A stretch of DNA of 64,000 nucleotides from Cupriavidus necator N-1 (GTDB taxonomy: Bacteria; Pseudomonadota; Gammaproteobacteria; Burkholderiales; Burkholderiaceae), in the NCBI RefSeq assembly GCF_000219215.1, contig NC_015724.1, positions 1-64,000 on the forward strand, read 5' to 3'. Under the pieces are notes generated by a model that was given only the letters and a program-made list of their open reading frames with translations, did no database searches and was not told the DNA's origin. The position numbers and the translations under genes were made by a program. Of the stretch, positions 41,679-63,615 are shown piece after piece. The number at the start of each line of letters is the position of its first letter. Position 1 is the first letter of the stretch.

Positions 41679-41710
41679 GGCCGCATCTCTGCCATTCGAG
41701 GAGACAGAGC

Positions 41711-43486
41711 ATGAAGACCATCGAAGTACCCGTCCTCGTGGTGGGCGCCGGGCCCGCAGGCCTGACCACAACTGCGCTGCTGGCAACCTACGGCGTGCGT
41801 ACTCTGACCATCACCAAGTACCAGGGCACTGCCAATTCGCCGCGCGCCCACATCACCAACCAGCGCACCATGGAGGTGTTCCGCGATCTGGGCATTGAGG
41901 ACCGCGTGCTGGCGCTGGCGACACCGAACGCGCTGATGAGCAACAATGTGTGGGCCACCAGCTTTGCCGGCACGGAAATCGCGCGGCTGCAGACGTGGGG
42001 CAGTTCTGAGCAGCGCAAGGCCGACTATGCGACGGCCAGCCCGTCGCCGATGTGCAACGCGCCGCAGCATCTGCTGGAGCCGGTGCTGCTGGATTGCGCC
42101 CGCGAGCGCGGCGCGGAATTCCTCTTCAACACCGAACTGACGCAAATCTCGCAGACCGCGGATGAGATCATGGCCCTGCTGACGGACCGCATCACGGGCG
42201 AAATCACGCAGGTAAAGGCGCGCTATGTTGTGGGCGCGGACGGTGGCGCCAGCACGGTGGTGCCGCAGTGCGGCTTCGAGATGGAAGGCCAGATGGGGCT
42301 CGGGGCAGCGGTCAACTGCTGGCTAGAGGTGGATCTTGCCAAATTCTGCGAGCATCGTCCTGGCGTACTGTACTGGATGACCCAGCCGGGCAACGACTAC
42401 TGGGTGGGTAGCGGTACGTACATCTGCGTGCGGCCGTGGAATGAATGGGTGCTGCTCTTCATGTACGACCCGGCACGGGGCGAGCCCGACCTCAGCGAAG
42501 AGGCTGTAATCCGACGCGCGCGGGCAACCATTGGTGACGACTCGCTGCCCATCCGGGTGAAGGCGGTCAGCAAATGGCAGATCAATCATGTCGCGGCGAA
42601 GGACATGCGCAAGGGCCGCGTGTTCATCGCCGGAGACGCTGCCCACCGGCATCCGCCCGCCAACGGGCTCGGCACCAATACGTCGATCCAGGACGCGTTC
42701 AACCTGGCCTGGAAGCTTGCGCATGTAATCCGCGGAAACGCTGACGACAGCCTGCTCGACACCTACTCGGCCGAGCGCCAGCCGGTGGCGCGACGCGTGG
42801 TTGACCGGGCGATGCAGTCGGTCCGCAACATGCTGCCGATTGCCAAGGCGCTCGGGTTTGAGCCTGGCCAGAGTGAAGCGCAGGGCTGGCAGAACGTTGA
42901 CGAACTCTTCGGCGATACTGAGCGGGGCCGCGAGCGGCGCCGTGCCTTGGAGGAGGCGGTCAGGCTGCAGAATTACCAGTTCAACTGCCACGGCGTGGAA
43001 ATGGGGCAGGTCTATGCTTCGGATGCCGTGGTGTCCGATGGCCGGCCCCGGGATCCCTACACGCGGGACCCGGATCTCTACTATCACCCGAGCACTTCGC
43101 CAGGTGGTGTCGTTCCTCACGCATGGCTGGAGCTTAGCAAGGAGCGGGTCTCCACCCTGGACCTGGTGGGGCACGGTCGCTTTACGTTGCTTACCGGTGT
43201 CGGTGGCGCTGGCTGGCGTCGCATTGCCGCAGACGTGTCAGCCGCGCTCGATATCGACATCGAAGTCGTCAGCATCGGGGGGCCGAACTGCGATGCACAC
43301 GACGTCTATGGCACCTGGAGCGAACTGCGCAGCATCTCGGATTCCGGCGCGATCCTGGTGCGGCCGGATCGATTTGTCGGCTGGCGGCGGGAGAATATCG
43401 ATGCGCATGCGGCGCAGGCGCTGGAACATGCGATCCGGGACATACTCGGCCGGCCCGACCAAGCCGGCCGCCGCCAGGCCGCGTAG
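41711..43486 (+). CDS. FAD-dependent aromatic monooxygenase (TfdB / phenol hydroxylase type)
   Basis: Flavoprotein hydroxylase of 591 residues. The FAD-binding VVGAGPAGLTT starts near residue 9; DG motif VVGADGGAST lies around residue 180; GDAAHRHPPANGLGTN binds the FAD ribityl chain. The C-terminal thioredoxin-like domain is present. It resembles 2,4-dichlorophenol 6-monooxygenases (TfdB) and other phenol hydroxylases, and should make the catechol for the extradiol enzyme. GAGGAGA ten bases before the ATG is a strong ribosome site. The substrate and chlorine tolerance are not known. Confidence 0.9.
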   Translation: MKTIEVPVLVVGAGPAGLTTTALLATYGVRTLTITKYQGTANSPRAHITNQRTMEVFRDLGIEDRVLALATPNALMSNNVWATSFAGTEIARLQTWGSSEQRKADYATASPSPMCNAPQHLLEPVLLDCARERGAEFLFNTELTQISQTADEIMALLTDRITGEITQVKARYVVGADGGASTVVPQCGFEMEGQMGLGAAVNCWLEVDLAKFCEHRPGVLYWMTQPGNDYWVGSGTYICVRPWNEWVLLFMYDPARGEPDLSEEAVIRRARATIGDDSLPIRVKAVSKWQINHVAAKDMRKGRVFIAGDAAHRHPPANGLGTNTSIQDAFNLAWKLAHVIRGNADDSLLDTYSAERQPVARRVVDRAMQSVRNMLPIAKALGFEPGQSEAQGWQNVDELFGDTERGRERRRALEEAVRLQNYQFNCHGVEMGQVYASDAVVSDGRPRDPYTRDPDLYYHPSTSPGGVVPHAWLELSKERVSTLDLVGHGRFTLLTGVGGAGWRRIAADVSAALDIDIEVVSIGGPNCDAHDVYGTWSELRSISDSGAILVRPDRFVGWRRENIDAHAAQALEHAIRDILGRPDQAGRRQAA

Positions 43487-48135: not shown

Positions 48136-49098
48136 TCAGACTGACAGGACCGGCTTTACGTCGAGCGTCCCCGCTGCGCTTTCGCAGCGCGGCTCCCACG
48201 GCGGCGATGATAGCGATTGCTGCAGAAACTGGATCAGCGTCCGGATCTTCTGTGAGGTGTACGCGGTGCGCGGGTAGACCGCAAAGACGCCATCGTCAAT
48301 GGGCGCCTCGTCGGGAAGCACTTCGATCAGGCGGCCGGCCGCCAACTCCCGGGATACGATAAACAGCGGCAGCACGGCAATGCCATGGCCGCCCAGGGCG
48401 GCGTCGCGGAGCACCTCGCCGTTGTTTGCGGTGAACACGCCGCGTGGCGCTATGATCTTCGGTGCGGCCTGCGGGGTGTGGCCGCGGAACGCCCAGATCT
48501 GCCCGGGCGGTGAATTGCTGTAGGACAGGCAGGCATGCCTGGCGATGTCGTCGATGCTCTCAGGCAGGCCAGCGTGTGCGGCGTATTCCGGGCTGCAGCA
48601 CAGGATGCGCCGGCTGACCGCCAGCTTGCGGGCGATCAGCGCGCTGTCGCCCAGGCGGGTGATGCGGATCGCCACGTCGTAGCGCTCGTATCCCGTATCC
48701 ACCAGCCGGTCATCCAGCTCCATGACCACATGCAGGCGCGGATGCGCCTTGGCAAACTCGGAAATCAACGGCGAGAGCCAGAGCGTGCCGAAGCTCATCG
48801 GCGCAAGAATTCGCAATTCGCCGCACAGCTCCTGCGAGGTCTTGGAGATGCTTTCCGCGGCACGGGTGAGCTGTGCCATGGCGGCACGAGCCTGCTCGTA
48901 GAAGTGCCGGCCGCTTTCGGTCGGCTGGACGCGGCGCGTGGAGCGCTGCAGCAGCGTGACGCCCAGGCTGCGCTCGAGGTCGCTGATGCGCTTGCTGACG
49001 ACGGACTTCGACAGCGCCATGTGACGCGCGGCGCCGCTGACGCTGCCGAGTTCGACGACCAGGAGGTAGGCTTCGATCTCCTCGGTTCTGAGTTGCAT
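48136..49098 (-). CDS. LysR-family transcriptional regulator
   Basis: LysR protein of 320 residues. The winged helix (residues 1-62) includes SVSGAARHMALSKSVVSKRISDLE in two parts; the effector domain includes SPLISEFAKAHPRLHVV. It is convergent with the aceE-like gene (28-bp gap) and no clear divergent target gene lies at its start: the next element is a broken LysR fragment. Its target is therefore open. Confidence 0.9.
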   Translation of the reverse strand: MQLRTEEIEAYLLVVELGSVSGAARHMALSKSVVSKRISDLERSLGVTLLQRSTRRVQPTESGRHFYEQARAAMAQLTRAAESISKTSQELCGELRILAPMSFGTLWLSPLISEFAKAHPRLHVVMELDDRLVDTGYERYDVAIRITRLGDSALIARKLAVSRRILCCSPEYAAHAGLPESIDDIARHACLSYSNSPPGQIWAFRGHTPQAAPKIIAPRGVFTANNGEVLRDAALGGHGIAVLPLFIVSRELAAGRLIEVLPDEAPIDDGVFAVYPRTAYTSQKIRTLIQFLQQSLSSPPWEPRCESAAGTLDVKPVLSV

Positions 49099-49201: not shown

Positions 49202-49571
49202 CTATTCTTCCTCGAACGCCTCGAAGCGGTCGGCCAGCTGGTCGATCAGCTTCCCGCCCCGCGGGCAGTAGCCCTCTGCATGACGGTAACACGGCGTGGA
49301 TGACTTCCTTGCGCGGACGCCACGCCGGCAGCAAGGGCACCAGCGTCCTCTCCGCCAGCTAGTCCCACACCCTCATCACGGGAAGTTGGCAGACGCCTAC
49401 ACCGGCAACAGCGGCGAGGGGCATGGCGATCATGTCGCCGGTGACATAGCGAGGGCGATCGTGGATTTCGGCCTGCGCGCCCAGAGCGTTTTCCCGATGG
49501 GCTTCAAGGCAGGGTGTGGCATATCCGGCCACGTCATTCCGCCTAAAGACTGGCGAGATGCCGAATGGCAT
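49202..49571 (-). pseudogene. LysR-type regulator, C-terminal remnant
   Basis: About 120 codons of LysR effector-domain similarity: DRPRYVTGDMIAMPLAAVAGVGVCQLP in two parts, then a TAG at 49359-49361 after VMRVWD, then LVPLLPAWRPRKEVIHAVLP in the same frame, and a shift near 49255 before LIDQLADRFEAFEEE and the natural stop. It closely parallels the end of the LysR at 28197. The DNA-binding part is missing, so it is non-functional. It directly abuts the TetR gene. Confidence 0.75.
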
Positions 49572-50236
49572 CAGGCGGCCCCGGGCGCGCCTTCTGCCAC
49601 GATCAGGGCGATGGCGTCATTGACCAGCGCATCCGTTTCGCTGTCGTCCGGACGCACGCCGGTGGCCAGGGTCCGGTGCAGTACGCTGGCCAGCACCATG
49701 CCGTGGAAGAGCCGGGCGCTGACTTCCGGGCTGGCTGACAGCCGGGCGCCGGCCACTTGCTGTGTGGCGAGAAAGCCGGCGACATAGGCACAGGTTGCCG
49801 CGGGGCCACGCGTGTACCACGCATTGCCGAGAGCCGGAAAGCGTCGCGATTCCGCGAAAATGAGTCGCAGGAATGCGAGGTGGCGCTCCTCCAGCAAGGA
49901 TTGCAGGAAGCTGTGTGCGATCTTTTGCAGGCCCTCTGCGGCGTTGCAGCGCGACAGGTCCAGGCTCGTCTCGGTTTTCTCGAGGAAGCGGTCGCAGAGT
50001 CTTTCCACCACGGCGACGAACAGGCCGTCCTTGCCCCCGAAATAGCTGTAGACATTGGTCTTGGAGCCCCCACACGCCTTGACGATCTCGTCGAGGCTGA
50101 CGCCGTCGTAGCCGTGCTCGAGGAACATATCCGCAGCGATGCTCAGGATCAGGGCGCGCTTCTCTTCCCCGCGACGCGTCATGCGCAAAGGCGGGCGGTG
50201 AGCAGCGTTGGCGGAGGAGTCCGGTTGTGATTCCAT
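49571..50236 (-). CDS. TetR-family transcriptional regulator
   Basis: TetR protein of 221 residues. The N-terminal helix-turn-helix (about 25-70) contains ILSIAADMFLEHGYDGVSLD, IVKACGGSKTNVYSYFGGKDGLF (split). The C-terminal ligand domain resembles the AefR-like group, with a hydrophobic stretch. It is divergent from the small repeat-protein gene. The 254-bp intergenic region contains a perfect 10-bp inverted repeat at 50356 and TACCATACGGTA at 50393, both candidate operators. The start at MESQPD is the first credible one. Confidence 0.9.
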   Translation of the reverse strand: MESQPDSSANAAHRPPLRMTRRGEEKRALILSIAADMFLEHGYDGVSLDEIVKACGGSKTNVYSYFGGKDGLFVAVVERLCDRFLEKTETSLDLSRCNAAEGLQKIAHSFLQSLLEERHLAFLRLIFAESRRFPALGNAWYTRGPAATCAYVAGFLATQQVAGARLSASPEVSARLFHGMVLASVLHRTLATGVRPDDSETDALVNDAIALIVAEGAPGAA

Positions 50237-50355
50237 GCAGTAGCCAGCTTTGAAAAAAAGATTGGACGCCGGCGCCATGTTCCGTGGCGCCGGGCCCCGC
50301 GCAGTCTACCAAAAGGCCGGCGGTGGAACTGGCAGCGTGAGGTACGAGGGGAGAC

Positions 50356-50811: not shown

Positions 50812-50962
50812 CGGGCAGGCGCCGGCGCTGCGTGCAGGACGCGCAGCGCCGCGGGCGAATGACATTGCAACAGGCTTCCGACCTTGCAAAGGAATCGGCC
50901 AAAACCTAATATAATTCGTATGCCGCATTAATTTGCGTATAGCGCAAAAAAACGGAGACAAC

Positions 50963-51760
50963 GTGACGGACACGAAACCAACCCGACCCGCCGGCCGCAC
51001 CGCCATCGCCTATGTGGATACCCACGGCGTATCGGTCCATGGCAAGGACCTGAGCCAGGAAATCATCGGCAAGACGGGGTTTACGGAATACTTTCTGTTC
51101 CTGCTGACTGGCCGCCAGCCGGATGCAAAGCTGGTGGCGATCACCGATGCCTGCCTGGTGGCCATCGCCGAACATGGCCTGGTGCCCTCGGTCCAGGCCG
51201 CGCGCATGACGCTCGCCGCAGCCCCTGATGCCTTGCAAGGCGCGGTGGCGGCCGGCGTGCTGGGCTGCGGCTCCGTCATCCTGGGTGCCTCGGAGACGGC
51301 GGGGCAGCTGCTCGGAGAAGTGCTATCGGGCAAGGAAGCAGGCACGCTGGCCGAGAGTGCACACTCCGTCGTGCGCGCCTTGCGGCAGGCCCGCCGGCCC
51401 TTGCCGGGATTCGGGCATCCCACGCACAAGCTGGGTGACCCGCGCGCTCACCGCCTGCTGGCCGTTGCGCGCGAGCTCGGCGTGGCCGGTGATCACGTGG
51501 CTGCGCTGGAAGCGGTGGCCGCAGTGGTGCCTGAGTACTACAGCAAGCCACTACCGCTCAACGTTTCGGGCGCGATTCCGGCGGTATTGCTGGACGCAGG
51601 CTATCCCGCCACGGCGCTCAAGGGCGTACCGATGCTGGCCCGCGTGGCGAGCCTGATTGCCCACCTGCAGGAAGAGCGCCAGCAGCCGATCGGCTTCATC
51701 CTCTCCGATGCAGCCGAACATGCCATCACCTACAGCGCCGCGCCGGCGCAAGCATCATGA
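50963..51760 (+). CDS. Citryl-CoA lyase-like protein (citrate synthase fold), copy 2
   Basis: Citrate-synthase-fold protein of 265 residues, diverged from the copy at 21527. It keeps the shared signature EHGLVPSVQAAR, LGCGSVILG and PGFGHPTHKLGDPRA, again without the HGG His of true citrate synthases. A GTG start is used: GGAG lies 5 bases upstream (50954-50957). Its stop overlaps the following CoA-ligase start (ATGA). With the ligase and intradiol dioxygenase it repeats the module of the first cluster, which points to a conserved pathway step. Confidence 0.82.
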   Translation: MTDTKPTRPAGRTAIAYVDTHGVSVHGKDLSQEIIGKTGFTEYFLFLLTGRQPDAKLVAITDACLVAIAEHGLVPSVQAARMTLAAAPDALQGAVAAGVLGCGSVILGASETAGQLLGEVLSGKEAGTLAESAHSVVRALRQARRPLPGFGHPTHKLGDPRAHRLLAVARELGVAGDHVAALEAVAAVVPEYYSKPLPLNVSGAIPAVLLDAGYPATALKGVPMLARVASLIAHLQEERQQPIGFILSDAAEHAITYSAAPAQAS

Positions 51761-53400
51761 AGCCGCTCATACCCAATGCAGGCGGTGCCATGGTGGCGCC
51801 GCTCGAAGTGCTCAGGCAGTATCGCGCCCACGATTTCACGCTGGCCGATTTCCTTGCGGCGCGCGTGGAGGCGCATCCCGACAAGCCGGCGCTGCTGTTC
51901 GAAGGCGAGACCTGGACCTATCGCCAGCTTGACGCAAGGATTGCGCGCGTGGCGAGCTGGCTCGCGCAGGAGATGCAGGTTGGCGCCGGCGACCGTGTCG
52001 GCGTGCTGTCTGCAAACCATCCGTCCACTGTCGTGCTGATGTTCGCGCTGGCGCGGATCGGCGCGACGATGGTCCCGGCCAATCCCGACTACCGGCTGGA
52101 CGAAGCGCTCTACGTGTTCCGGCATGCGCAGGTCTGCGGCCTGGTATGTTCGCCTGCCACGCTGGAAACCGCCGCGGCAATCGCGGCGGAGCTGGGCGGC
52201 GCCATCTGGCTGCGTGCCAACGAGAGCGGGAGTCACAATGTCCCGACGCTGGAGCAGTCGATAGCTGCCCATGCGGGTGCCTATGCGGACGGCGCCGGCA
52301 GCGCTGCAGATACTGCGCTGATCATCTACACATCCGGCACCACCGGCTTTCCCAAAGGCGCCATGCACAGTCACCGCGGCTATGTGCTGACGGCGGAGGC
52401 CTTCATCGGCCGCCTGCACTTGCAGCCAGACGAGCGCGTGATGTGCGTGATGCCGCTGTTCCACATCAATGCGCTGATGTATTCGGTCGGGGGGGCGCTT
52501 GCCTGCGGCGGCTGCCTGGTGCTTCTGCGCAGGTTCTCGGCGTCGTCGTTCTGGCGCTTCGCGGCCGAGACCGGCGCGACCGAAGTCAACCTTGTGGCCG
52601 CGGCCGGCAGCATCCTGGCCAGGCGACCGCGCGAGGAATTCGTACCTGGCCATCGCCTCTCCAAAATGTTCATTGCCCCGCAGACAAAGGAAATGGTGCA
52701 GGTGATGAAGCGGGAATTCCACGTGCCGCGCCTGATCGAGTGCTACGGCATGACGGAAATCCCCGGCGTCATCGCCAATCCGTTCAACGGCCCGCACAAG
52801 CTCGGCACCATGGGCCTGGTCTCGCCGCACCCGGACCCGGCCGTGCCGGTGCCCGAGGCGCGCATCGTCGATGACGACGGCCACGACGTGGCACCCGGCG
52901 CCGCGGGCGAACTGCTGATCCGCACCCCGACGCTGATGCAGGGCTACTATCGCGACGCCGCGCAGACCGAGGCCGCGTTCCGCGACGGGTGGTTTGCCAC
53001 CGGCGACCTTGTGCGTCAGGACAGTGATGGCTACTACGTCTTCGTCGCACGCAAGAAGGACGTGATCCGCCGCAAGGGCGAGAACGTGTCCGGCGCCGAG
53101 CTCGACCGGATCTTCGGCGAGCACCCCGCAGTCGAGGAAGCGGCGGCTATCGGCGTGCCGGCAGACCTGGGCGAAGAAGAGATCCTGCTGGCGGTGCAGT
53201 TCCGCCCCGGGCAGTCGGTCGAGCCGGGCGAGTTGCTAGCCTGGGCACGGGACCGGCTGGCCGTGCACAAGCTGCCGCGCTATGTCGTTGCCGTGGATGC
53301 CATTCCGCACACCCCGACGCACAAGCCGGCCAAGCACAAGCTGAAAGCGGACGGGACCCTGTTTGCCCGCGCCACCGACATGGCCGCCGCCAGCCACTGA
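51757..53400 (+). CDS. AMP-forming acyl-CoA ligase, copy 2
   Basis: ANL-superfamily adenylate-forming ligase of 547 residues. The P-loop IYTSGTTGFPKGAM, YGMTEIPG, GWFATGDLV and the C-terminal Lys in HKPAKHKLKADG are all present. It should activate a carboxylate, possibly the substrate of the overlapping lyase-like gene. It is translationally coupled to that gene (4-bp overlap) and followed 22 bp later by an intradiol dioxygenase. Confidence 0.9.
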   Translation: MKPLIPNAGGAMVAPLEVLRQYRAHDFTLADFLAARVEAHPDKPALLFEGETWTYRQLDARIARVASWLAQEMQVGAGDRVGVLSANHPSTVVLMFALARIGATMVPANPDYRLDEALYVFRHAQVCGLVCSPATLETAAAIAAELGGAIWLRANESGSHNVPTLEQSIAAHAGAYADGAGSAADTALIIYTSGTTGFPKGAMHSHRGYVLTAEAFIGRLHLQPDERVMCVMPLFHINALMYSVGGALACGGCLVLLRRFSASSFWRFAAETGATEVNLVAAAGSILARRPREEFVPGHRLSKMFIAPQTKEMVQVMKREFHVPRLIECYGMTEIPGVIANPFNGPHKLGTMGLVSPHPDPAVPVPEARIVDDDGHDVAPGAAGELLIRTPTLMQGYYRDAAQTEAAFRDGWFATGDLVRQDSDGYYVFVARKKDVIRRKGENVSGAELDRIFGEHPAVEEAAAIGVPADLGEEEILLAVQFRPGQSVEPGELLAWARDRLAVHKLPRYVVAVDAIPHTPTHKPAKHKLKADGTLFARATDMAAASH

Positions 53401-53422
53401 CACAGAATCACCGGAGACAACG

Positions 53423-54262
53423 ATGAACAACCCCGACAACCACACCCTGCAACGCGCCTTCGATGCCATGTGCGAGGACGCGCCTGGCGCGGACCCGGTC
53501 CTGCAGGCGCAGTTCCGCGTCGCGCTGAAGCACTTCCACGCCATGCTGGACGAACTGAAGCTGACCGACGAGCAGCTCTACCGGATCGCCACCTGGATGG
53601 GCAAGGTGGCCCAGCAGGATGAGCTGATCATGCTGTGCGACATGATGGGCCTGACCATGCGGGCGCTGGACCTGGCACGCACCGATGACCACGCCACGCC
53701 GCAGAACGTGACCGGTCCGTTCCCCAAGGACGAGATCGCCGAAGGCTCCAACCCGTGCCATATCGCCACGGAGGACGAGCCTGGCCAGCGGCTGGAGGTG
53801 CGCGGCCGCGTGCTGGATGCGGCCACCGGCAAGCCGGTACCGGGCGCGATGATGATCGTATGGCAGCCCAACCAGTTCGGCCGCTATGAGAACGAAGACG
53901 ACTCGCAGTCGGAAGACAACCTGCGCGGCAAGCTGCGTTGCGAGGCAGATGGCAGCTTCCAGGTGTTCACCGTCCGCCCGGGTGGCTACATCATCGGGCG
54001 CGAGGATACCGAAGTGGGCGTGCTGATGAAGCGGCTGGGCCGCAACCGGCAGCGCGCGCCGCACATCCACTACCGCGTGATGCAGCCAGGCTACCGGACC
54101 CTGACATCGCAGCTGTACTTCGCCGGTGATCCGGCCAATCCGGTCGACTGCATCTTCTCAACCATCGACGACCACATTGTCGACGCGCTGCCGCACCCGG
54201 AGCGCGACGGCTACCAGCTGGTCAACCTGGATATCGTGCTGCAGCCTGAAGCAGCGCAGTAA
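53423..54262 (+). CDS. Intradiol ring-cleavage dioxygenase, copy 2
   Basis: Intradiol Fe(III) dioxygenase of 279 residues, diverged from the enzyme at 14836. Ligands are Tyr155 (FGRYENE), Tyr189 (GGYIIG), His214 and His216 (PHIHY). Sequence features fit the catechol/hydroxyquinol group. CGGAGA before the ATG marks the start. It ends the operon with the citryl-CoA-lyase-like and ligase genes; there is no maleylacetate reductase here. A convergent IclR gene starts 83 bp before the LysR gene. Confidence 0.87.
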   Translation: MNNPDNHTLQRAFDAMCEDAPGADPVLQAQFRVALKHFHAMLDELKLTDEQLYRIATWMGKVAQQDELIMLCDMMGLTMRALDLARTDDHATPQNVTGPFPKDEIAEGSNPCHIATEDEPGQRLEVRGRVLDAATGKPVPGAMMIVWQPNQFGRYENEDDSQSEDNLRGKLRCEADGSFQVFTVRPGGYIIGREDTEVGVLMKRLGRNRQRAPHIHYRVMQPGYRTLTSQLYFAGDPANPVDCIFSTIDDHIVDALPHPERDGYQLVNLDIVLQPEAAQ

Positions 54263-54280: not shown

Positions 54281-55135
54281 TCAGGAGGCGGCGGTAATGG
54301 AGTGCGCCAGCGCCGGCGCGCGCCGGATCGCGGCCTCGATCGACGCGGCGGCTTCGCGTAGCGCCGGCAGCCGGGTGGCGACCAGTTCGTCGGCGCTGGT
54401 GCGCTCGGTTTCGGTGGAGCAGTTGATGGCGGCGATCACGCGCTGTTGCGGGTCGCGCACCGGCACGGCGATCGACAGCACGCCCAACTCCAGCTGGCTG
54501 TCCTGGATGGCATAGCCCTGCTCGAGCGCGCGTGCCAGCGCCGCGCGCAGCGCGTCGGCATCGCTGAGCGTCACCGGGGTGAATTTCTGGAATGGCGCCT
54601 TGTCGAGGATCTTGTTCTGCTGGGCCTTGGGCGCGTGCGCCAGCAAGGCCAGGCCAAGGGAGGTGCAATGGACCGGCAGCCGGTAACCCACCGAAGCGCG
54701 GAAGGCAATGCGCCGGCGGCTGGGCACATGCGCCAGGTAGACCACGCTGTCGCCGTCGAGGATGGCAAGCGAGACCGAATCGCGGAAGCGCTCGGCCACC
54801 TCCTGCAGGAACGGCTGCACGATGTCGCGCAGGTTCATCGAGCTGAGGAAGGCGGCGCCCAGCGACAGCACCTTGGGCAGCAGCACGAAGCGGCGGCCGT
54901 TGGCGCCGATATAGCCCAGCGCCTGCAGCGTCAGCAGCGCGCGGCGCGCGGTCGCGGGCGTCATGCCGGTGGCCTGCGCCACCTCGCTCAGCGTCAGTTC
55001 CGGCGTGGTCTCGGTAAAGGCCTGGATCACCGCCAGGCCCCGCGCCAGCGCCGCGACGTAGTCGCGGTGACCTTCCTCGAGCTTCGGCGGAGCGTCGTTG
55101 TCGACGGGGGCGGACGGTTTGGCGGCGGAGGTCAT
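54281..55135 (-). CDS. IclR-family transcriptional regulator
   Basis: IclR protein of 284 residues, PcaR/PobR-like. The helix-turn-helix (about 45-75) shows LSEVAQATGMTPATARRALL; the GAF-like effector domain has RIAFRASVGYRLPVHCTSLG. It is convergent with the dioxygenase gene and divergent from the LysR gene (83-bp gap). It is a good candidate to control the lyase-like/ligase/dioxygenase operon at 50963. Confidence 0.9.
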   Translation of the reverse strand: MTSAAKPSAPVDNDAPPKLEEGHRDYVAALARGLAVIQAFTETTPELTLSEVAQATGMTPATARRALLTLQALGYIGANGRRFVLLPKVLSLGAAFLSSMNLRDIVQPFLQEVAERFRDSVSLAILDGDSVVYLAHVPSRRRIAFRASVGYRLPVHCTSLGLALLAHAPKAQQNKILDKAPFQKFTPVTLSDADALRAALARALEQGYAIQDSQLELGVLSIAVPVRDPQQRVIAAINCSTETERTSADELVATRLPALREAAASIEAAIRRAPALAHSITAAS

Positions 55136-55218: not shown

Positions 55219-56106
55219 ATGAGACTCGACCCCACTTCGCTGCGCCTGTTTGTCGCCGTGGCCGAAACCGGCTCCATCGCCGCGGCCGCGGAGCACGCGC
55301 ACCTTGCCGCGGCCGCGGTCAGCAAGCGCGTGAGCGAGCTGGAGCAGGGGCTGGGCACGGCCTTGCTGATGCGCAGCAACAAGGGCGTGCAGCCGACCAT
55401 GGCCGGGATGGAGCTGGCGCACCTGGCGCGCGGCGTGCTGCACAACCTGGATGACATCCTGGTGCGCATGCGCGACTACGGCGGCGGCTTGCGCGGGCAG
55501 GTGAGGGTGATGGCCAATATCTCGGCCATCACGCAGTTCCTGCCGGCGCAGCTCAAGTCGTTTCTGGCCGAGTACCCGCTGATCGACGTGCACCTGGAAG
55601 AGCGCGTCAGCACCGCCATCGTGCGCGCGGTGGCCGAGAACGCCGCGGACATCGGCATCTTCACCGCGGGTGCGGTGGGAGCGGAGCTGGAGACGTTCCC
55701 CTACCGGCGCGACGAACTGGTCGTGGTGGTGCCCGGCGCGCATCCGCTGGCCGGGCGGCACTCGGTGACCATCCGCGAGGCCTTCGACTACGACTTCGTC
55801 AGCCTGCACGCAGGCAGCCAGATCCACCTGCAGCTGGCCAAGGCCGCCAGCGAGGCCGGCCGCGTGTTCAAGCCGCGCATCCACGTGCCCGGCTACGACG
55901 CGCTGTGCCTGATGGTGCAGGCGGGACTGGGCCTGGGGATCCTGCCCAGGTCCAGCGCCGGGCCTTACCAGCAAACCCTTGGCATCTGCACCGTCGCGCT
56001 CGATGAAGCGTGGGCCGCGCGCCAGCTGGTGATCGGCGTGCGTGCGTATGAGGGCCTGTCCGCGGTGGCGCGGCTGCTGGTGGACCGGCTGCGCGAGGAT
56101 GAATAG
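55219..56106 (+). CDS. LysR-family transcriptional regulator
   Basis: LysR protein of 295 residues. The winged helix includes SIAAAAEHAHLAAAAVSKRV; the effector domain includes YPLIDVHLEERVSTAIV. It is co-oriented with and just before the CoA-transferase pathway genes (121-bp gap), and divergent from the IclR gene. It probably activates the downstream operon, although a LysR is more often divergent from its target. Confidence 0.88.
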   Translation: MRLDPTSLRLFVAVAETGSIAAAAEHAHLAAAAVSKRVSELEQGLGTALLMRSNKGVQPTMAGMELAHLARGVLHNLDDILVRMRDYGGGLRGQVRVMANISAITQFLPAQLKSFLAEYPLIDVHLEERVSTAIVRAVAENAADIGIFTAGAVGAELETFPYRRDELVVVVPGAHPLAGRHSVTIREAFDYDFVSLHAGSQIHLQLAKAASEAGRVFKPRIHVPGYDALCLMVQAGLGLGILPRSSAGPYQQTLGICTVALDEAWAARQLVIGVRAYEGLSAVARLLVDRLREDE

Positions 56107-56227
56107 CGCGCCAGCGCTGCCATCGTTTTTCGCGATGGCGGGCTCGCCAATGGTTGCTTTACCGCGCGCGCGAGTTCTTCCAATCTTGCATCACAGACCA
56201 CCGTATCCACAGGAGCAGCAAACCGCC

Positions 56228-57439
56228 ATGGCTAACGAAGCGAACAACGGAACGATGCCGCTGCAGGGCGTCCGCGTGATCGAGCTCGGCTCGCTGATTG
56301 CAGGCCCGTATGCGGGCGGACTGCTCGCGCAGTTCGGCGCCGAAGTGCTGAAGATCGAATCGCCGAAGGACGGCGATCCGCTGCGCAAGTGGCGCAAGCT
56401 GTATGAAGGTACCTCGCTCTGGTGGTATAGCCAGAGCCGCAACAAGAAGTCGCTGACGCTGGACCTGCGTTCGGCACAGGGCCAGGAGATCGTGCGCAAG
56501 CTGGTGGCCGAAGCCGATATCGTGATCGAGAACTTCCGTCCCGGTACGCTCGAGAAATGGGGCCTGGGCTGGGAAGACCTGCGCAAGGTGAACCCCGCGC
56601 TGGTCATGGTGCGCATCTCCGGCTACGGCCAGACCGGTCCCTACAAGGACCGCCCCGGCTTTGCCGCGATCGCCGAGTCGATGGGCGGGCTGCGCTATGT
56701 CAGCGGCTATCCCGACCGGCCGCCGGTGCGCTCGGGCGTAAGCATCGGCGACACGCTCGCGTCGCTGTATGGCGTCATCGGCGCCTTGCTGGCCATGCAC
56801 CACCTGCGCGCCAACCAGGGCGAAGGGCAGTTTGTCGACGTGGCGCTCTATGAGTCGGTCTTTGCCGTGATGGAGAGCCTGGTGCCGGAGTACGCCAAGT
56901 TCGGCCATGTGCGCGAGCGTTCCGGCGCGAGCCTGCCGGGCATCTCGCCGTCGAATACGTATCCGTGCCAGGACGGCCAGTACGTGATCATCGCCGGCAA
57001 CGGCGATGCCATCTTCCGGCGCTTCATGGCCGCCATCGGCCGCGACGACCTGGGCGAGGACCCACGCCTGGCGCACAACGACGGGCGCGTGCAGCACAAC
57101 GCCATGCTCGACGACGCCATTACCGCCTGGACCTCCGCGCATGCGCTCGACACGGTGCTGGCAACGCTGGAAGCCGCGGCCGTGCCCTGCGGAAAGATCT
57201 ACACCGCGGCGGAGATCAGCAGCGACGCGCACTACCGCGCGCGCGACATGATCGAGCCACACCATTTGCCGGATGGCTCGCCGCTGGAACTGTCAGGCAT
57301 CGTGCCCAAGCTCAGCGGGACCCCGGGACGCACCAGGTGGATCGGCCCCGAGCTTGGCCAGCACACCGAAGAGATCCTGGCGGGCATCGGCATTGCCGGC
57401 GACGAACTGCGCGCGCTGCGCGCCGCCGGCGTGGTCTGA
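56228..57439 (+). CDS. CaiB/BaiF-family CoA-transferase
   Basis: Class III CoA-transferase of 403 residues. GVRVIELGSLIAGPYAGGLLAQFGAEVLKIE (two parts) is the N-terminal fold signature; the catalytic Asp is expected in SGVSIGDTLASLYG. Members move CoA from succinyl-CoA or an acyl-CoA to acids such as citramalate, oxalate or itaconate. It is followed by an HMG-CoA-lyase family gene 29 bp later, so it probably makes the CoA ester that the lyase splits. Confidence 0.9.
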   Translation: MANEANNGTMPLQGVRVIELGSLIAGPYAGGLLAQFGAEVLKIESPKDGDPLRKWRKLYEGTSLWWYSQSRNKKSLTLDLRSAQGQEIVRKLVAEADIVIENFRPGTLEKWGLGWEDLRKVNPALVMVRISGYGQTGPYKDRPGFAAIAESMGGLRYVSGYPDRPPVRSGVSIGDTLASLYGVIGALLAMHHLRANQGEGQFVDVALYESVFAVMESLVPEYAKFGHVRERSGASLPGISPSNTYPCQDGQYVIIAGNGDAIFRRFMAAIGRDDLGEDPRLAHNDGRVQHNAMLDDAITAWTSAHALDTVLATLEAAAVPCGKIYTAAEISSDAHYRARDMIEPHHLPDGSPLELSGIVPKLSGTPGRTRWIGPELGQHTEEILAGIGIAGDELRALRAAGVV

Positions 57440-57468: not shown

Positions 57469-58413
57469 ATGTGGCTTCCCAATGCCCCCCGACGGGTCAG
57501 CATCAATGAAGTGTCCGTGCGCGACGGCTTCCAGATCGAGCCTGAATTCGTCCCGACCGAAGAGAAGATCGCGCTGATCGACCAGCTCTCGAACACCGGG
57601 CTGGCCCGCATCGAGATCACGTCGTTCGTGTCGCCCAAGGCGATCCCGAACCTGCGCGATGCCGAAGCCGTGGCCAGGCGCATCCGCCGCAATCCGGCCG
57701 TGGTTTATACCGCGCTGGTGCCGAACGTGCGCGGCTGCGAGCGGGCGCTGGACTGTGCCCTGGATGAGATCAACCTGGTCATGTCGGCCAGCGAAACGCA
57801 CAACCTGGCCAACATGCGCATGCGCTGCGAGCAGTCCCTGGCGCAGTTCGCCGAGGTAATGCAGCTGGCCCGCGCCGGCGGCCTGCGCGCCAGCGGCTGC
57901 GTGGCGACCGCATTCGGCTGTCCGTTTGAAGGCGCGATCGCGCCGGAGCGCGTGAAATGGGCCGCGGGCCGCTACCTGGACCTGGGCATGGACAGCATCA
58001 CGCTGGCCGACACCACCGGCATGGCCGACCCGCGCCAGGTGAGCGCGCTGGCCGAGTCCTTCCTGCGCTGGTTCCCGGGCGTGCCGCTGACCCTGCATTT
58101 CCACAACACGCGCGGCATGGGCCTGGCCAATGTGATGGCCGGGCTGGCCGCGGGCGTGGACAGCTTCGACGCGTCGCTGGGCGGGCTGGGCGGCTGTCCG
58201 TTCGCGCCGGGTGCGACCGGGAACATCAGCACCGAAGACCTGGTGCATATGCTCGAAGCCGCCGGCATCGATACCGGCGTCGACCTGGACCGCTTGCTCG
58301 GCGCGGCGCGCGGCCTGCCTGGGCTGGTCGGACACGATATCTCCGGGCAGGTGGTCAAGGCCGGCAAGAGCACGGACCTGCATCCGGTGCCGGAGTGGGT
58401 GGGCGCAAGGTAG
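57469..58413 (+). CDS. Hydroxymethylglutaryl-CoA lyase-family enzyme
   Basis: TIM-barrel lyase of 314 residues. Active-site residues: VRDGFQ (Arg, Asp), TLHFHN metal-binding His pair (LHFHNTRGMG), and the catalytic Cys in GGLGGCPFAPGATGN. It cleaves a 3-hydroxy-acyl-CoA into an acyl-CoA and a keto acid; candidates are HMG-CoA, citramalyl-CoA or a similar compound. It lies between the CoA-transferase and LeuC-like genes in one operon. Confidence 0.9.
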   Translation: MWLPNAPRRVSINEVSVRDGFQIEPEFVPTEEKIALIDQLSNTGLARIEITSFVSPKAIPNLRDAEAVARRIRRNPAVVYTALVPNVRGCERALDCALDEINLVMSASETHNLANMRMRCEQSLAQFAEVMQLARAGGLRASGCVATAFGCPFEGAIAPERVKWAAGRYLDLGMDSITLADTTGMADPRQVSALAESFLRWFPGVPLTLHFHNTRGMGLANVMAGLAAGVDSFDASLGGLGGCPFAPGATGNISTEDLVHMLEAAGIDTGVDLDRLLGAARGLPGLVGHDISGQVVKAGKSTDLHPVPEWVGAR

Positions 58414-58443: not shown

Positions 58444-59859
58444 ATGACTGAACCCGACCGCCCGGCGAGCCTGCTCGACAAGCTCTGGGCCAGCCACGTG
58501 ATCCACCAGGAGCCGGACGGACCCGCGCTGATCTATATCGACCGGCACCTGGTCAACGAGGTGACCAGCCCGCAGGCCTTCGAAGGCCTGCGCCTGAACG
58601 CGCGCAAGGTGTGGCGCGCCGCTTCCGTGCTGGCAACGGCCGATCACAACGTGCCGACCACCGCGCGCAAGCTGGGCATTGCCGATCCCGTCAGCCGGGC
58701 GCAGGTCGAGGCCCTGGACCAGAACTGCGCAGACACCGGCATCGTCAACTTCGGCATGGATGATCCGCGCCAGGGCATCCTGCACGTGGTCGGTCCGGAA
58801 CGCGGCGCCACCTTGCCCGGCATGAGCATCGCCTGCGGTGACTCGCACACGTCCACGCACGGCGCGTTCGCGGCGTTTGCGTTCGGCATCGGCACCTCTG
58901 AAGTGGAGCAGGTGCTGGCCGCGCAATGCCTGTGGATGAAGAAGCCCAAGTCGATGCTGGTGCGGGTGGAGGGCGAACTGCCCCGTGGCGTGGCCGCCAA
59001 GGACATCGCGCTGGCGCTGATCGGCCGCATCGGCACCGCCGGCGCCACCGGACATGTGATCGAGTTTGCCGGCAGCACGATCCGTGGCCTCAGCATGGAA
59101 GCGCGCATGACGGTGTGCAACATGGCGATCGAAGCGGGTGCGCGCGCCGGCATGGTGGCGGTGGATGAAACCACGCTGGCCTACCTGGACGGCCGTCCGC
59201 AGGCGCCGGCCGGTGCGATGTGGGACGCCGCCACCGGATACTGGCGCACGCTGCGCAGCGATCCTGGCGCCACCTTCGATGCCGTGGTGGAGCTGGACGC
59301 CACCGCGATCCGCCCGCACGTAACCTGGGGCACCTCGCCGGAAATGGTGGTGGCCATCGGCGAGCGCATTCCCGATCCGCGCGACGAGCGCGACCCGGTG
59401 CAGCGCAAGAGCATCGAGCAGGCGCTGGACTACATGGGCCTGCTGCCGAATACGCCGATCGAGGCGGTCGCGCTGGACAAGGTATTCATCGGCTCGTGCA
59501 CCAATGCGCGCCTGGAAGACCTGCGCGCGGCGGCGGCCGTGCTGCGCGGGCGCCATGTCTCGCCGCGCATCAGGCAGGCTCTGGTGGTGCCGGGATCGGG
59601 GCTGGTCAAGTCGCAGGCCGAGGCCGAGGGGCTGGACCAGGTGTTCATCGCCGCCGGCTTCGAATGGCGCGAACCGGGCTGCTCGATGTGCCTGGGCATG
59701 AACGATGACCGCCTGTCGGCCGGCGAGCGCTGCGCGTCCACCTCCAACCGCAACTTCGAAGGCAGGCAGGGGCCGGGCGGGCGCACCCACCTGGTCAGCC
59801 CGCAAATGGCGGCCGCGGCCGCGGTGGCGGGCCACTTCATTGATGTGCGCTCGCTGTAG
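58444..59859 (+). CDS. LeuC-like aconitase-family hydro-lyase, large subunit
   Basis: Homologue of isopropylmalate dehydratase large subunit, 471 residues. The 4Fe-4S cluster Cys residues are present: Cys352 (FIGSCTNAR), Cys413 and Cys416 (GCSMCLG). The N-terminal signature [28 protein letters not shown] (split in two) is conserved. It is adjacent to a LeuD-like gene. In this context the substrate may be another dicarboxylate, such as citraconate, mesaconate or a dimethylmalate. A leucine role is also possible, since no leuB or leuA is near. Confidence 0.9.
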
Positions 59860-59880: not shown

Positions 59881-60519
59881 ATGAGAGCCTTTACCACGCT
59901 GGACGGCCTGGTGGCGCCGCTGGACCGAGCCAATGTCGATACCGACGCCATCCTGCCCAAGCAGTTCCTGAAGTCGATCCGGCGCAGCGGCTTCGGCCCC
60001 TACCTGTTCGACGACTGGCGCTACCTCGACCACGGCGAGCCAGGGCAGGACTGCAGCAGCCGGCCCCTCAACCCGGATTTCGTGCTGAACCAGCCGCGCT
60101 ACCGCGGCGTCTCGATCCTGCTGGCGCGCGAGAACTTCGGTTGCGGCTCATCGCGCGAGCATGCGCCGTGGGCGCTGGAGGACTTCGGCCTGCGCGCGCT
60201 GATCGCGCCCAGCTTTGCCGACATCTTCTACAACAACTGCCTGAAGAACGGCCTGCTGCCGATCGTGGCGGCGCCGGACGTGGTCGAGCGCCTGTTCGCC
60301 GAGACCGCGGCCACGCCGGGCTACCGGCTTCAGGTGGACCTGGCCGCGCTGCAGGTGGTGACGCCGTCGGGCGAGGCCATTGCCTTCACGCTGGATCCGT
60401 TCAAGCAGCACTGCCTGCTGAACGGCCTGGACGATATCGCGCTGGCGCTGCGCCACGCCGGGCAGATCCAGGATTACGAACAGGCGAGGCGGCAACGCGA
60501 GCCCTGGCTCTTTGACTGA
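59881..60519 (+). CDS. LeuD-like aconitase-family hydro-lyase, small subunit
   Basis: Small subunit of 212 residues, paired with the LeuC-like gene 21 bp upstream. It has the expected [16 protein letters not shown] at the N-terminus and [15 protein letters not shown], the swivelling-domain active-site loop. It works with the large subunit as one hydro-lyase. A Bug receptor follows 67 bp downstream. Confidence 0.9.
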
Positions 60520-60586
60520 ATGATCCCCTGACGGCAGCCGGCCGTCCGAGCCGGCACCGTCGACACACACAATGGATGGAGACACT

Positions 60587-61579
60587 ATGTCCTGGCAATT
60601 TCATACGACCCACGCGCTACGTGCCGCAGCCTTCGGCCTGGCCTGCCTGGCAGGCACGGACGCCGCACTGGCGCAGACCTATCCCACGCAGCCGATCCGC
60701 ATGGTGGTGCCTTATGCACCGGGCGGAACCACCGACATCATCGCCAGGCAACTGGCGCAGCGTATGTCCGAGAAGCTGGGGCAGCCGGTGGTGGTGGAAA
60801 ACAAGAGCGGCGCCAATACCGTGATCGGCGCCGACGCGGTGGCCAAGGCTCAGCCCGACGGCTACACGCTGCTGCTGACCAACGATGCCACCTTCGTGCT
60901 CAACCCGGTGGTGCTGCCGTCGGTGTCGTACAACGTCGCGCGCGACTTTGCCCCGGTGGCGACGATCGGCTACGTGCCGCTGGTCATGGCCGTATCGGGC
61001 AGCCTGCCGGTGGACAGCGTCAAGGACCTGGCCGCGTATGCCAAGGGCCGCCCGCAAGCCCTCAGCTACGGCTCGTTCGGCAGCGGCAGCCAGCCGCACC
61101 TGATGGGCGCGCTGTTCAACAAGCTGGCCGGCACCGACCTGGTCCACGTGCCGTACAAGGGCTCGGCGCCGGCGGTGGCAGACGTCGTCGGCGGCCAGAT
61201 CCTGATGACCTTCCCGGCGCTGCCGACGATCCGGAGCTTTGTTGCGGCAAAGAAACTCAAGGTGCTCGCCGTCAGCGGCGACAAGCGCACGCGCGCGCTG
61301 CCGCAGGTGCCCACCTTTGCTGAGGCCGGCTACAAGGACATGGATATCTCGGCCGTCTACGGCGTGCTGGCCCCGGCCAAGGTGCCGCGCGCGGTGGTCG
61401 ACAAGCTAAACGCCACCATCCGCGAGATCCTGGATGACAAGGACTTCGTCGAGAAGCACTTCGCCGCGCAGGGCATGGTGCCGATGAAGCTGAGCCCGGC
61501 GCAGTTTTCGCAGTACATCGAGACGCAGACCCGCCAGACCCGCAAGCTGGTCGAGCTGTCCGGCGTCAGGGTCGAGTAG
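60587..61579 (+). CDS. Bug-type tripartite tricarboxylate transporter receptor
   Basis: Periplasmic solute-binding protein of 330 residues, of the Bug/TctC family. A signal peptide ends at AALAQTYPT; IRMVVPYAPGGTTDIIAR is the family hallmark region. It binds a small carboxylate for uptake by a TTT transporter whose TctA/TctB subunits are not in this window. GGAG 5-6 bases upstream favours the ATG at 60587 over the one at 60572. It supplies a likely substrate for the CoA-transferase/hydro-lyase pathway. Confidence 0.9.
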   Translation: MSWQFHTTHALRAAAFGLACLAGTDAALAQTYPTQPIRMVVPYAPGGTTDIIARQLAQRMSEKLGQPVVVENKSGANTVIGADAVAKAQPDGYTLLLTNDATFVLNPVVLPSVSYNVARDFAPVATIGYVPLVMAVSGSLPVDSVKDLAAYAKGRPQALSYGSFGSGSQPHLMGALFNKLAGTDLVHVPYKGSAPAVADVVGGQILMTFPALPTIRSFVAAKKLKVLAVSGDKRTRALPQVPTFAEAGYKDMDISAVYGVLAPAKVPRAVVDKLNATIREILDDKDFVEKHFAAQGMVPMKLSPAQFSQYIETQTRQTRKLVELSGVRVE

Positions 61580-61587
61580 GAGGGGCC

Positions 61588-62505
61588 ATGACCAGCACGA
61601 ACAATGCACGCGCGGTGCATGCACCGCGGCTTGGATGGATCGGCGTTGGCGCCATGGGCCGGCCGATGTGCCTGAACCTGCTGAAGGCCGGCTACCGGCT
61701 CACGGTCTTTGACCGCGTGCCGGCGCAGTGCGAGGCGGTGGCCGCTGCAGGCGCCACGGTGGCGCCGGCAGCGCAGGCACTGGTGGCGGACTCCGATGTG
61801 GTGTTCTCGACGATCTTCGACGATGGCGGGCTGCGCGACCTGTTCCTGGCCCCTGGCGGCGTTGCCGGGGCCGCGACGGCAGACAAGGTCTTTGTCGACA
61901 TGAGCACGGTCTCGCCCGACGCCTCGGCCGAGGTGTCCGCCGCGCTCGCGCAGCGCGGCGCCGCTTTTCTGCGCGCGCCGGTGTCGGGCACGGTATCGCT
62001 GGCCACCAGCGCGCAGCTGAGCTGCTTCGTGTCCGGGCCGCGGCCGGCCTTCGACGCGGTGCAGCCCGCCCTGGCGTGCCTGACCGCGCGCCAGTCCTAC
62101 GTGGGCGGCGCGGACGAGGCCCGCGTCATCAAGCTGATGATCAACATGATGGTGTTCATGAGCACCGCGGTGATCGGCGAAGGGCTGGTCTTCGGCGCGC
62201 GCGCCGGGCTGGACCGCGCGCTGATGGTCGATGCGATCAACGACAGCATCGTCGGCAGCGCCCACTACCGCACCAAGGCAGAGCAGCTCAAGCAGCGCGA
62301 CTACGCCGCCGTCGGCCCGATCTCGCTGGTGGTGAAGGACCTCGACCTGGCATTGGCGGTGGCCCGCGACAACGCGGTCGCGCTGCCGATGTCGTCGCTG
62401 GTGCGGCAATACCTGGCGCTGATGCAGCAGCGCCGGCAAGACCATCTCGACATCGCCGCGCTGGCCGATGTGCTCGAGTGGGCAGGCGTGCCCGGCGCAG
62501 TGTAA
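61588..62505 (+). CDS. NAD(P)-dependent beta-hydroxyacid dehydrogenase
   Basis: 3-hydroxyisobutyrate dehydrogenase-family protein of 305 residues. The Rossmann motif is LGWIGVGAMGRPM; APVSGTVSLA and the catalytic Lys in VIKLMINMMVF are visible. It resembles the other family member at 18889. It follows the Bug receptor gene by 8 bp. Its likely role is oxidation of a 3-hydroxy-acid or reduction of a semialdehyde in the same pathway. Confidence 0.88.
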   Translation: MTSTNNARAVHAPRLGWIGVGAMGRPMCLNLLKAGYRLTVFDRVPAQCEAVAAAGATVAPAAQALVADSDVVFSTIFDDGGLRDLFLAPGGVAGAATADKVFVDMSTVSPDASAEVSAALAQRGAAFLRAPVSGTVSLATSAQLSCFVSGPRPAFDAVQPALACLTARQSYVGGADEARVIKLMINMMVFMSTAVIGEGLVFGARAGLDRALMVDAINDSIVGSAHYRTKAEQLKQRDYAAVGPISLVVKDLDLALAVARDNAVALPMSSLVRQYLALMQQRRQDHLDIAALADVLEWAGVPGAV

Positions 62506-62541: not shown

Positions 62542-63615
62542 ATGAACCACAACCCGATCACCCGGGCGCCACGCGCCCTGTTCGCCGCCGCCGGGCTTGC
62601 CCTGGCCCTGGCGATGCCGCCGGTGCTGGCCCAGGGCAAGCCCGGCGCCGAACCGGTCCGCATCGGCGGCCTGTTCTCGAACACCGGCGGCCTTGCCGCC
62701 GTGGGCCAGGCCGAGCGCGAAGGCGCGCTGCTGGCGCAGAAGGTCGTCAATGCCCGTGGGGGCATTGGCGGGCGGCCGCTGGAAATGATTGTCGAAGACG
62801 ACGGCTCCAGCCCGGATTCCGCCGTCGCCAAGGCGAACGCGCTGCTCCATACGCACAAGGTTCGCGCCATCGTCGGGCCATCGGGTATTGCACAGACGGT
62901 TGCCATCGGCGGCATCACACAGGCGCAGAAGGTGCCCCTGTTTTCGTTCTCGGGACTGGGGCCCGCGGTAGTGCGTGAACGCCATTGCGTGTTCCACCTG
63001 ACGCCGTCGCAGGAGCTCAACGCGCGTGCCGTGCTGGCCTATGCGCGCGACAACGGCCTGAAGCGCGTCGGCGTGCTGAATGACTCGGGCTACGGCCAGG
63101 TGGTCTGGACCAGCCTGAAGACGCTGGACCGCGAGTACGGCGTCAGCTTCATACAGGTGGAGAAGTTCGAGATCGCCGCCACCGATGTCACCACGCAGGC
63201 GGCCAAGATCAAGGCGGCCACGCCGGATGCCATCATCGTCATCTCGACCTCGCCCGCGCCGTTCCGCAACGTGCGCAGCTGAAGGTGGGCGTGCCCATCA
63301 TCTCCGTGCATGGCACGGCTACCTACGAGACCGTCAAGGCCATGGGCGAGGCCGCGGACAACATCATCCATCCCGAGTTCATCGTATCCGAAGACCCGCT
63401 GCCGGGGCAGAAGGAATTCGTCGAGACCTTCCGCAAGGAGTACGGCAAGCTGCCCAAGCATTTCTCGGCGGTAGGCTGGGATGCGGTCATGGCCCTGGCC
63501 GCGGGCCTGAAGGCGGCCGGTGCCGATGCGCCGGGCGACAAGCTGTGCAGCGCGTTGCGCCGGCCTTACCAGGGTGTCACCAGCGGCTACGACTTCGCCG
63601 CGCCCGACATGGGCG
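62542..63615 (+). pseudogene. Liv-type ABC transporter substrate-binding protein, frameshifted
   Basis: Branched-chain-amino-acid-type (LivJ/K-like) periplasmic binding protein. A signal peptide (MNHNPITRAPRALF..., ending VLAQG) and VRIGGLFSNTGGLAAVGQAE are intact. One base is missing near 63275-63279: the first frame stops at 63282 after FRNVRS, and KVGVPIISVHGTATYE continues in another frame from 63285. The tail DFAAPDMGG ends near 63615, where ABC ATPase sequence begins. Frameshift plus lost end make it non-functional. Confidence 0.85.

Follow-up and report, generated by a model that had tools for sequence, protein, structure and literature searches.

In the first 64,000 nucleotides (the window) of a 424-kb contig of Cupriavidus necator N-1, whose genome comprises 8.48 Mb in four contigs, we analyzed a gene cluster in which a citryl-CoA-lyase-fold (CCL) protein, CCL2, an AMP-binding acyl-CoA ligase, and an intradiol ring-cleavage dioxygenase, IDO2, form a tight plus-strand operon (50963 to 54262). 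This triad is the core of a larger conserved unit that includes an IclR-family regulator and a dedicated isopropylmalate dehydratase, LeuC2-LeuD2. We read the unit as a single operon for aromatic catabolism whose lower pathway depends on CoA, a reading to which we give a probability of roughly 0.45. The genes of the unit are as follows.

50963 to 51760, plus strand: CCL2, CCL-fold protein with Ser202 at the acidic-residue position (PF00285, NF004868)
51757 to 53400, plus strand: AMP-binding acyl-CoA ligase (PF00501, E 9.2e-76)
53423 to 54262, plus strand: IDO2, predicted intradiol ring-cleavage dioxygenase (PF00775, E 6.9e-34 with the frame taken from 53363)
54281 to 55135, minus strand: IclR-family regulator, PcaR/PcaU/PobR subfamily (TIGR02431)
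58444 to 59859, plus strand: LeuC2, isopropylmalate dehydratase large subunit (TIGR00170, 739.5 bits, passing the cut-off of 560.25)
59881 to 60519, plus strand: LeuD2, isopropylmalate dehydratase small subunit (PF00694)

A sequence-only reading of this DNA had described the triad as a compact plus-strand operon with IclR and LysR regulators nearby. Profile matches, a 4-base overlap (ATGA) between the CCL2 and ligase genes, and a spacing of 22 bases between the ligase and IDO2 genes bear this out, and both regulators were found, the LysR gene just beyond the IclR gene. With all candidates scored, IDO2 was found at E <= 1e-45 in 15 of 60 Cupriavidus genomes. CCL2 orthologues (75 to 100% identity) occur in exactly the same 15 genomes, beside IDO2, so the linkage is beyond chance. 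C. metallidurans CH34, a well-known laboratory organism, carries the triad. Across 399 genomes of the order, with at most six candidates scored per genome, the only genome with IDO2 at this threshold was C. necator N-1 itself.

Among the 14 other Cupriavidus loci, one (L072) ends inside IDO2, leaving 13 complete loci. All 13 have the IclR gene adjoining the triad, as well as LeuC and LeuD; a TctC-type solute receptor is present in 12, a CaiB-like CoA transferase in 8, and a LysR regulator, an HMG-CoA-lyase-like protein (HMGL), a dehydrogenase, and a Liv-type binding protein in 7 each. Loci L063 and L067 to L073 duplicate L028 to L034 and L040, and each was counted once. Three genomes are drafts: G440 and G403, where IDO2 is fragmented (as is LeuC in G440), and G442, whose triad contig stops within IDO2 and whose LeuC2 is on a separate contig. 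The linked triad was also found in the alphaproteobacterium Roseomonas pecuniae (CCL 63%, ligase 61%, dioxygenase 48%, and IclR 57% identity), where IclR lies upstream and divergent, and where the dioxygenase is followed by an iron-containing alcohol dehydrogenase scoring above the cut-off for 4-hydroxybutyrate dehydrogenase, then by Liv-type transporter genes, LeuC (66%), and LeuD (50%). Since IclR, LeuC, and LeuD are present in all complete loci and in R. pecuniae, the unit is larger than the triad. It is well supported that the conserved unit consists of IclR, CCL, ligase, dioxygenase, and LeuCD, with CaiB, HMGL, and LysR as accessory members. The association proposed in the sequence-only reading is therefore real and conserved, but that reading had overlooked the dedicated LeuC-LeuD pair and the constant IclR partner, and likewise the dehydrogenases and Liv-type transporter genes that accompany the triad in some relatives.

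The inheritance of LeuC2 ties the dehydratase to the triad. Its clade (at least 84% identity) is whole in 14 of the triad genomes, in broken pieces in the 15th, and absent from the 45 other Cupriavidus genomes among the 60 examined. The next LeuC shares at most 70% identity with LeuC2 and was found in 59 of the 60. LeuC2 is thus a dedicated paralogue coinherited with the triad.

IDO2 is, as judged from its sequence, an intradiol ring-cleavage dioxygenase, with predicted cleavage of a catechol. It has the N-terminal helices and beta sandwich of the intradiol dioxygenases, and Y155, Y189, H214, and H216, which we take to be the two tyrosine and two histidine iron ligands from their positions in the family, are invariant in 17 of 17 rows. 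A GPFPKD motif is invariant in its clade. IDO2 scores under the curated NCBIfam cut-offs for the catechol 1,2-dioxygenase and protocatechuate 3,4-dioxygenase equivalogs (TIGR02439, 118.5 against 392; TIGR02422, 66.9 against 296.4). The best-ranked solved structures are hydroxyquinol enzymes, and in the dioxygenase tree it stands in its own separate deep clade. By sequence, the solved structures nearest to the ligase are those of malonyl- and oxalyl-CoA synthetases, with others close behind.

CCL2 has the citryl-CoA lyase fold. It matches PF00285 (citrate-synthase fold) at E 1e-24 with the frame taken from 50933, and it passes the NCBIfam 'citryl-CoA lyase' subfamily NF004868 with 344.6 bits against a cut-off of 193. 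In 13 of the 14 other Cupriavidus loci, L069 being the exception, a GTG or ATG stands at the position of the GTG start at 50963. The family is large, 7,408 of 8,000 scored candidates matching CCL2 at E <= 1e-3. We aligned 134 subfamily rows; the alignment leans to CCL2, as 120 rows are its best matches, and of the genome's four own citrate synthases L005 served as reference, L006 to L008 evidently having been read in wrong frames. His152, Arg161, Arg227, and Glu237-238 are invariant in all 134 rows, so a citrate-synthase-like site is maintained. However, the position of the catalytic-type acidic residue (Asp of NVDG) is occupied in CCL2 by Ser202, and within these 134 rows position 202 is Ser in 130, Thr in 2, Val in 1, and Asn in 1. 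GHP replaces GHR in 126 rows, and the HGGA-type histidine of 6hxp is missing from every row. The latter loss alone does not exclude lyase activity, because Chlorobium ATP-citrate lyase shares it (RFGGA). With Ser in place of the acidic residue, the database name citryl-CoA lyase is doubtful for CCL2.

We examined 26 other CCL loci (2 from the same genome, 13 from the genus, and 11 from the order, excluding the two modules in the window and the triad orthologues). Within 5 kb, CaiB or an AMP ligase was matched in 22, TctC in 25, LeuC in 2, PrpD in 1, and a dioxygenase in 1; these counts are lower bounds, as several loci (L166, L169, and L171) are close to the end of their contig. At least 37 CCL places (E <= 1e-38, at most six candidates scored per genome) were located in a further 33 genomes of the order, and one of these places, in G171, adjoins a PF00775 gene; in G314 the two genes are about 13.5 kb apart and do not have the appearance of an operon. 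With so few CCL places near PF00775 genes, CCL was dismissed as an indicator of ring cleavage in general. The unit that is general pairs CCL with CoA activation, and the dioxygenases look like later additions to it.

Several of these loci differ in their partners. On the same contig (L022, 238000 to 257000), a further CCL occurs with CaiB, LeuC, LeuD, TctC, and a major facilitator superfamily transporter, with no dioxygenase adjoining; it is a candidate for a branched di- or tricarboxylate route. A fourth CCL, on another contig of the genome (L021, 15000 to 34000), has Val at position 202 and adjoins an MmgE/PrpD protein, a short-chain dehydrogenase/reductase, and an acyl-CoA dehydrogenase. 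In other families of the order (L164 to L167), relatives of the CCL from the first module of the window are arranged as TctC-ligase-CCL without a dioxygenase match, with short-chain dehydrogenases/reductases added in L164 and L165 and CaiB in L167. In two genomes of one family (L170 and L171), CCL3-type genes are neighbors of TctC, and a match to the fumarylacetoacetate-hydrolase family lies no more than 5 kb away.

That first module, at 14.8 to 23.9 kb, led the sequence-only reading to call the triad a second, strongly diverged copy of the same module. The divergence is confirmed: in local alignments the CCLs are 34%, the ligases 31%, and the dioxygenases 38% identical, and these identities together with the CCL and dioxygenase trees reject a recent duplication, in agreement with that reading. 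The notion of one module in two copies is not supported, as neither the lyases nor the dioxygenases share a lineage between the modules and the ligases have only 31% identity. In a CCL tree of 28 rows, which holds 5 of the 15 Cupriavidus triad loci and carries a long-branch warning for CCL1, CCL3, CCL4, L161, and L163, the 8 rows with a neighboring intradiol dioxygenase need four label changes, at least three of them forced by well-supported branches as gains or losses. A single clade of dioxygenase-linked CCLs is rejected (p-AU, from the approximately unbiased test, 1.2e-6), and L161, which has no dioxygenase match, groups among the triad CCLs. The dioxygenase tree likewise rejects one clade of CCL-linked dioxygenases (p-AU 7e-20), though its well-supported branches force two changes only, and it carries a long-branch warning where the branch to L009 to L011 meets the IDO2 branch; L012 and L020 were left out of it, and only the final 310 residues of L016 were used. 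In this tree IDO1 (14836 to 15711) groups with the genome's own hydroxyquinol-type enzymes L016 and L017, which adjoin maleylacetate-reductase-like genes (L019 yielded no usable frame), whereas IDO2 groups apart, in a clade with its relatives. The trees reject a common origin of the lyase-dioxygenase pairings in the two modules.

A third assembly was found in another family, at the CCL place of G171 (L162): CaiB, a hydroxyquinol-type dioxygenase, CCL, and two TctC genes, with a divergent LysR, 6 of the 10 submitted frames having given no family. Its CCL is nearer to CCL2 (57%) and its dioxygenase nearer to IDO1 (42%); these two dioxygenases are not sisters in the dioxygenase tree. The simplest reading of these phylogenies is that there are three separate lyase-dioxygenase assemblies, dioxygenases having apparently been added to CCL units three separate times. 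The recurrence had been offered as support for a real pathway; what stands of that argument is a conserved association, probably serving one pathway, and not the same module recurring.

Under the one-operon reading, IDO2 would first open a catechol-type ring between its hydroxyls to give a substituted muconate, the substrate probably being a ring with a carboxyl-carrying substituent. LeuC2-LeuD2 would then hydrate (or isomerize) this product to a citrate-like 3-hydroxy-3-carboxy acid, the ligase would form the CoA thioester of the hydroxy acid, and CCL2 would cleave that thioester to an oxo acid and either acetyl-CoA or a different short acyl-CoA. Where present, a dehydrogenase of the 3-hydroxyisobutyrate dehydrogenase (HIBDH) family in Cupriavidus or of the 4-hydroxybutyrate dehydrogenase type in Roseomonas may reduce the oxo acid. 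One possible example would be protocatechuate to 3-carboxymuconate, then to a hydroxy tricarboxylate, and finally to acetyl-CoA and 2-oxoglutaconate.

Several observations weigh against this reading. None of the 134 subfamily rows keeps the acidic residue that citrate synthases and citryl-CoA lyases have, which leaves cleavage by CCL2 uncertain. The PKQFLKSI loop of LeuD2 is nearly identical to the housekeeping LeuD loop, which handles a hydrophobic substituent, and there is thus no sign that LeuD2 has adapted to an extra carboxylate; an adaptation like that of homoaconitase was considered and rejected, as it is not seen in this loop. An exocyclic carboxyl would be expected to lie trans to the carboxyl newly formed by intradiol cleavage, whereas enzymes of the isopropylmalate isomerase type normally take cis-diacids. 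No LeuC match lies within 5 kb in 24 of the 26 other CCL loci, neither a LeuC nor a LeuD match was found in L162, and the dehydrogenase is missing from 6 of the 13 complete other loci. Finally, the ortho pathways for catechol and protocatechuate are reported to be complete at other places in the C. metallidurans CH34 genome (PMC2864759), which makes plain protocatechuate an unlikely substrate.

The best placed of the alternatives, though unlikely, is that the side chain is attacked first: the ligase and CCL2, with LeuCD, would shorten a citrate- or benzylmalate-like side chain of an aromatic acid, present as its CoA thioester, and IDO2 would open the catechol later, an order comparable to the ligase/hydratase-lyase route for hydroxycinnamates. 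The housekeeping type of LeuD2 loop would suit such a substrate, R. pecuniae has Liv-type transporter genes, a type that often takes aromatic acids, and in 21 of the 26 other loci CCL stands with a ligase or CaiB but without a dioxygenase match within 5 kb, so there the pair acts independently of ring fission. However, a ring-hydroxylase-like gene of the window (41318 to 43486) recurs, among the triad loci retrieved, only in G440, leaving no conserved ring-preparing partner (aldehyde dehydrogenases were not searched for), and the sequence evidence fixes no step order. Less probable again are two neighboring but separate pathways, with LeuCD, CaiB, HMGL, and TctC forming a branched dicarboxylate (citramalate/HMG-type) route beside an aromatic triad. 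The opposite-strand IclR gene does divide two blocks, and the block from LysR through CaiB, HMGL, and LeuCD to TctC reads as self-contained; but the LeuC2 clade is confined to triad genomes, LeuCD is kept where CaiB, HMGL, and LysR are lost, and in R. pecuniae LeuCD closes the triad's own gene run. Least probable is that CCL2 is no carbon-carbon lyase but has come to act on CoA thioesters in some other way, such as a thioesterase or isomerase would, within an otherwise conventional intradiol route, an idea favored by the Ser202, GHP, and HGGA-type substitutions but opposed by the invariant His152, Arg161, Arg227, and Glu237-238 and by the same histidine loss in Chlorobium ATP-citrate lyase.

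The IclR protein narrowly passes TIGR02431 (289.0 bits against a cut-off of 284.75) and probably acts at a putative operator before CCL2. The AGCGC core of this site is kept upstream of CCL2 in 15 of 15 Cupriavidus rows and is weaker in R. pecuniae. Allowing up to 3 mismatches, the 33-base pattern matches once in the 8.48-Mb genome, at this very place. Within the window, its short palindrome matches 3 times when 2 or fewer mismatches are allowed, one match being perfect, where chance would give 4.2; the long pattern alone is therefore informative. By eye, no operator-like site was seen before LeuC or IclR. The operator and the remaining features of the locus, of which those downstream of IclR run in the order LysR, CaiB, HMGL, LeuC, LeuD, TctC, HIBDH family, and Liv-type binding protein, are as follows.

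48136 to 49098, minus strand: LysR regulator upstream of the triad
49571 to 50278, minus strand: TetR regulator upstream of the triad
50915 to 50947, plus strand: probable operator, two imperfect TTCG/TTGCG...CGCA repeats, 15 bases before CCL2
55219 to 56106, plus strand: LysR regulator, accessory
56042 to 57439, plus strand: CoA-transferase family III (CaiB-like), accessory
57469 to 58413, plus strand: HMGL, accessory
60572 to 61579, plus strand: TctC-type periplasmic solute receptor
61588 to 62505, plus strand: 3-hydroxyisobutyrate/tartronate-semialdehyde reductase family dehydrogenase (HIBDH family), accessory, scoring under every NCBIfam cut-off
62542 to 63282, plus strand: Liv-type periplasmic binding protein, frame broken here

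In this genome the broken binding-protein frame is followed by an ABC-transporter fragment, and a relative (L066) has a longer Liv-type binding-protein frame and then a permease-like frame; the cluster's transporter looks to have been lost here. Farther along the contig, at about 68.9 to 74.0 kb, two fumarylacetoacetate-hydrolase family hydrolases, a glyoxalase-superfamily protein, and an amidohydrolase lie on one strand and perhaps belong to another aromatic pathway.

The operon resembles known systems in parts. With the β-ketoadipate pathway it shares intradiol ring fission and a regulator of the PcaR/PcaU/PobR subfamily, but it has a ligase, CCL, and LeuCD, and no cycloisomerase, decarboxylase, or enol-lactone hydrolase is among the genes annotated at 48 to 63 kb. 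It differs from the hydroxyquinol/maleylacetate pathway in the separate deep clade of IDO2 and in the lack of a maleylacetate reductase among the same annotated genes, an absence that the sequence-only reading had correctly pointed out. CCL2 shares fold, length, His152, DPR, and Arg227 with citryl-CoA lyase and the C-terminal module of ATP-citrate lyase; it differs in having Ser for the acidic residue, and the partners here are a dioxygenase, a ligase, or CaiB. In itaconate and citramalate degradation, a CoA transferase, a hydratase, and citramalyl-CoA lyase yield acetyl-CoA and an oxo acid, with other enzyme families and no ring cleavage. The proposed route would follow the same logic of activating, hydrating, and splitting as that pathway (PMC12290011).

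Among the matches listed in the open-access literature, none describes the association in its title or the start of its abstract. The operon suggests an as yet undescribed route for degrading ring-opened products. More tentatively, and with somewhat less confidence than in the single operon, we suggest an undescribed aerobic lower pathway in which intradiol products would be converted to citrate-like acids that receive CoA and are then cleaved by a relative of citryl-CoA lyase of the Ser type, and which would have been assembled three separate times from different dioxygenases. If true, such a pathway would mirror the citrate and homocitrate reactions of central metabolism. The lower pathways of aromatic degradation are thought to be a short list, to which this route would add one, and it would help to assign a function to the large family named citryl-CoA lyase.

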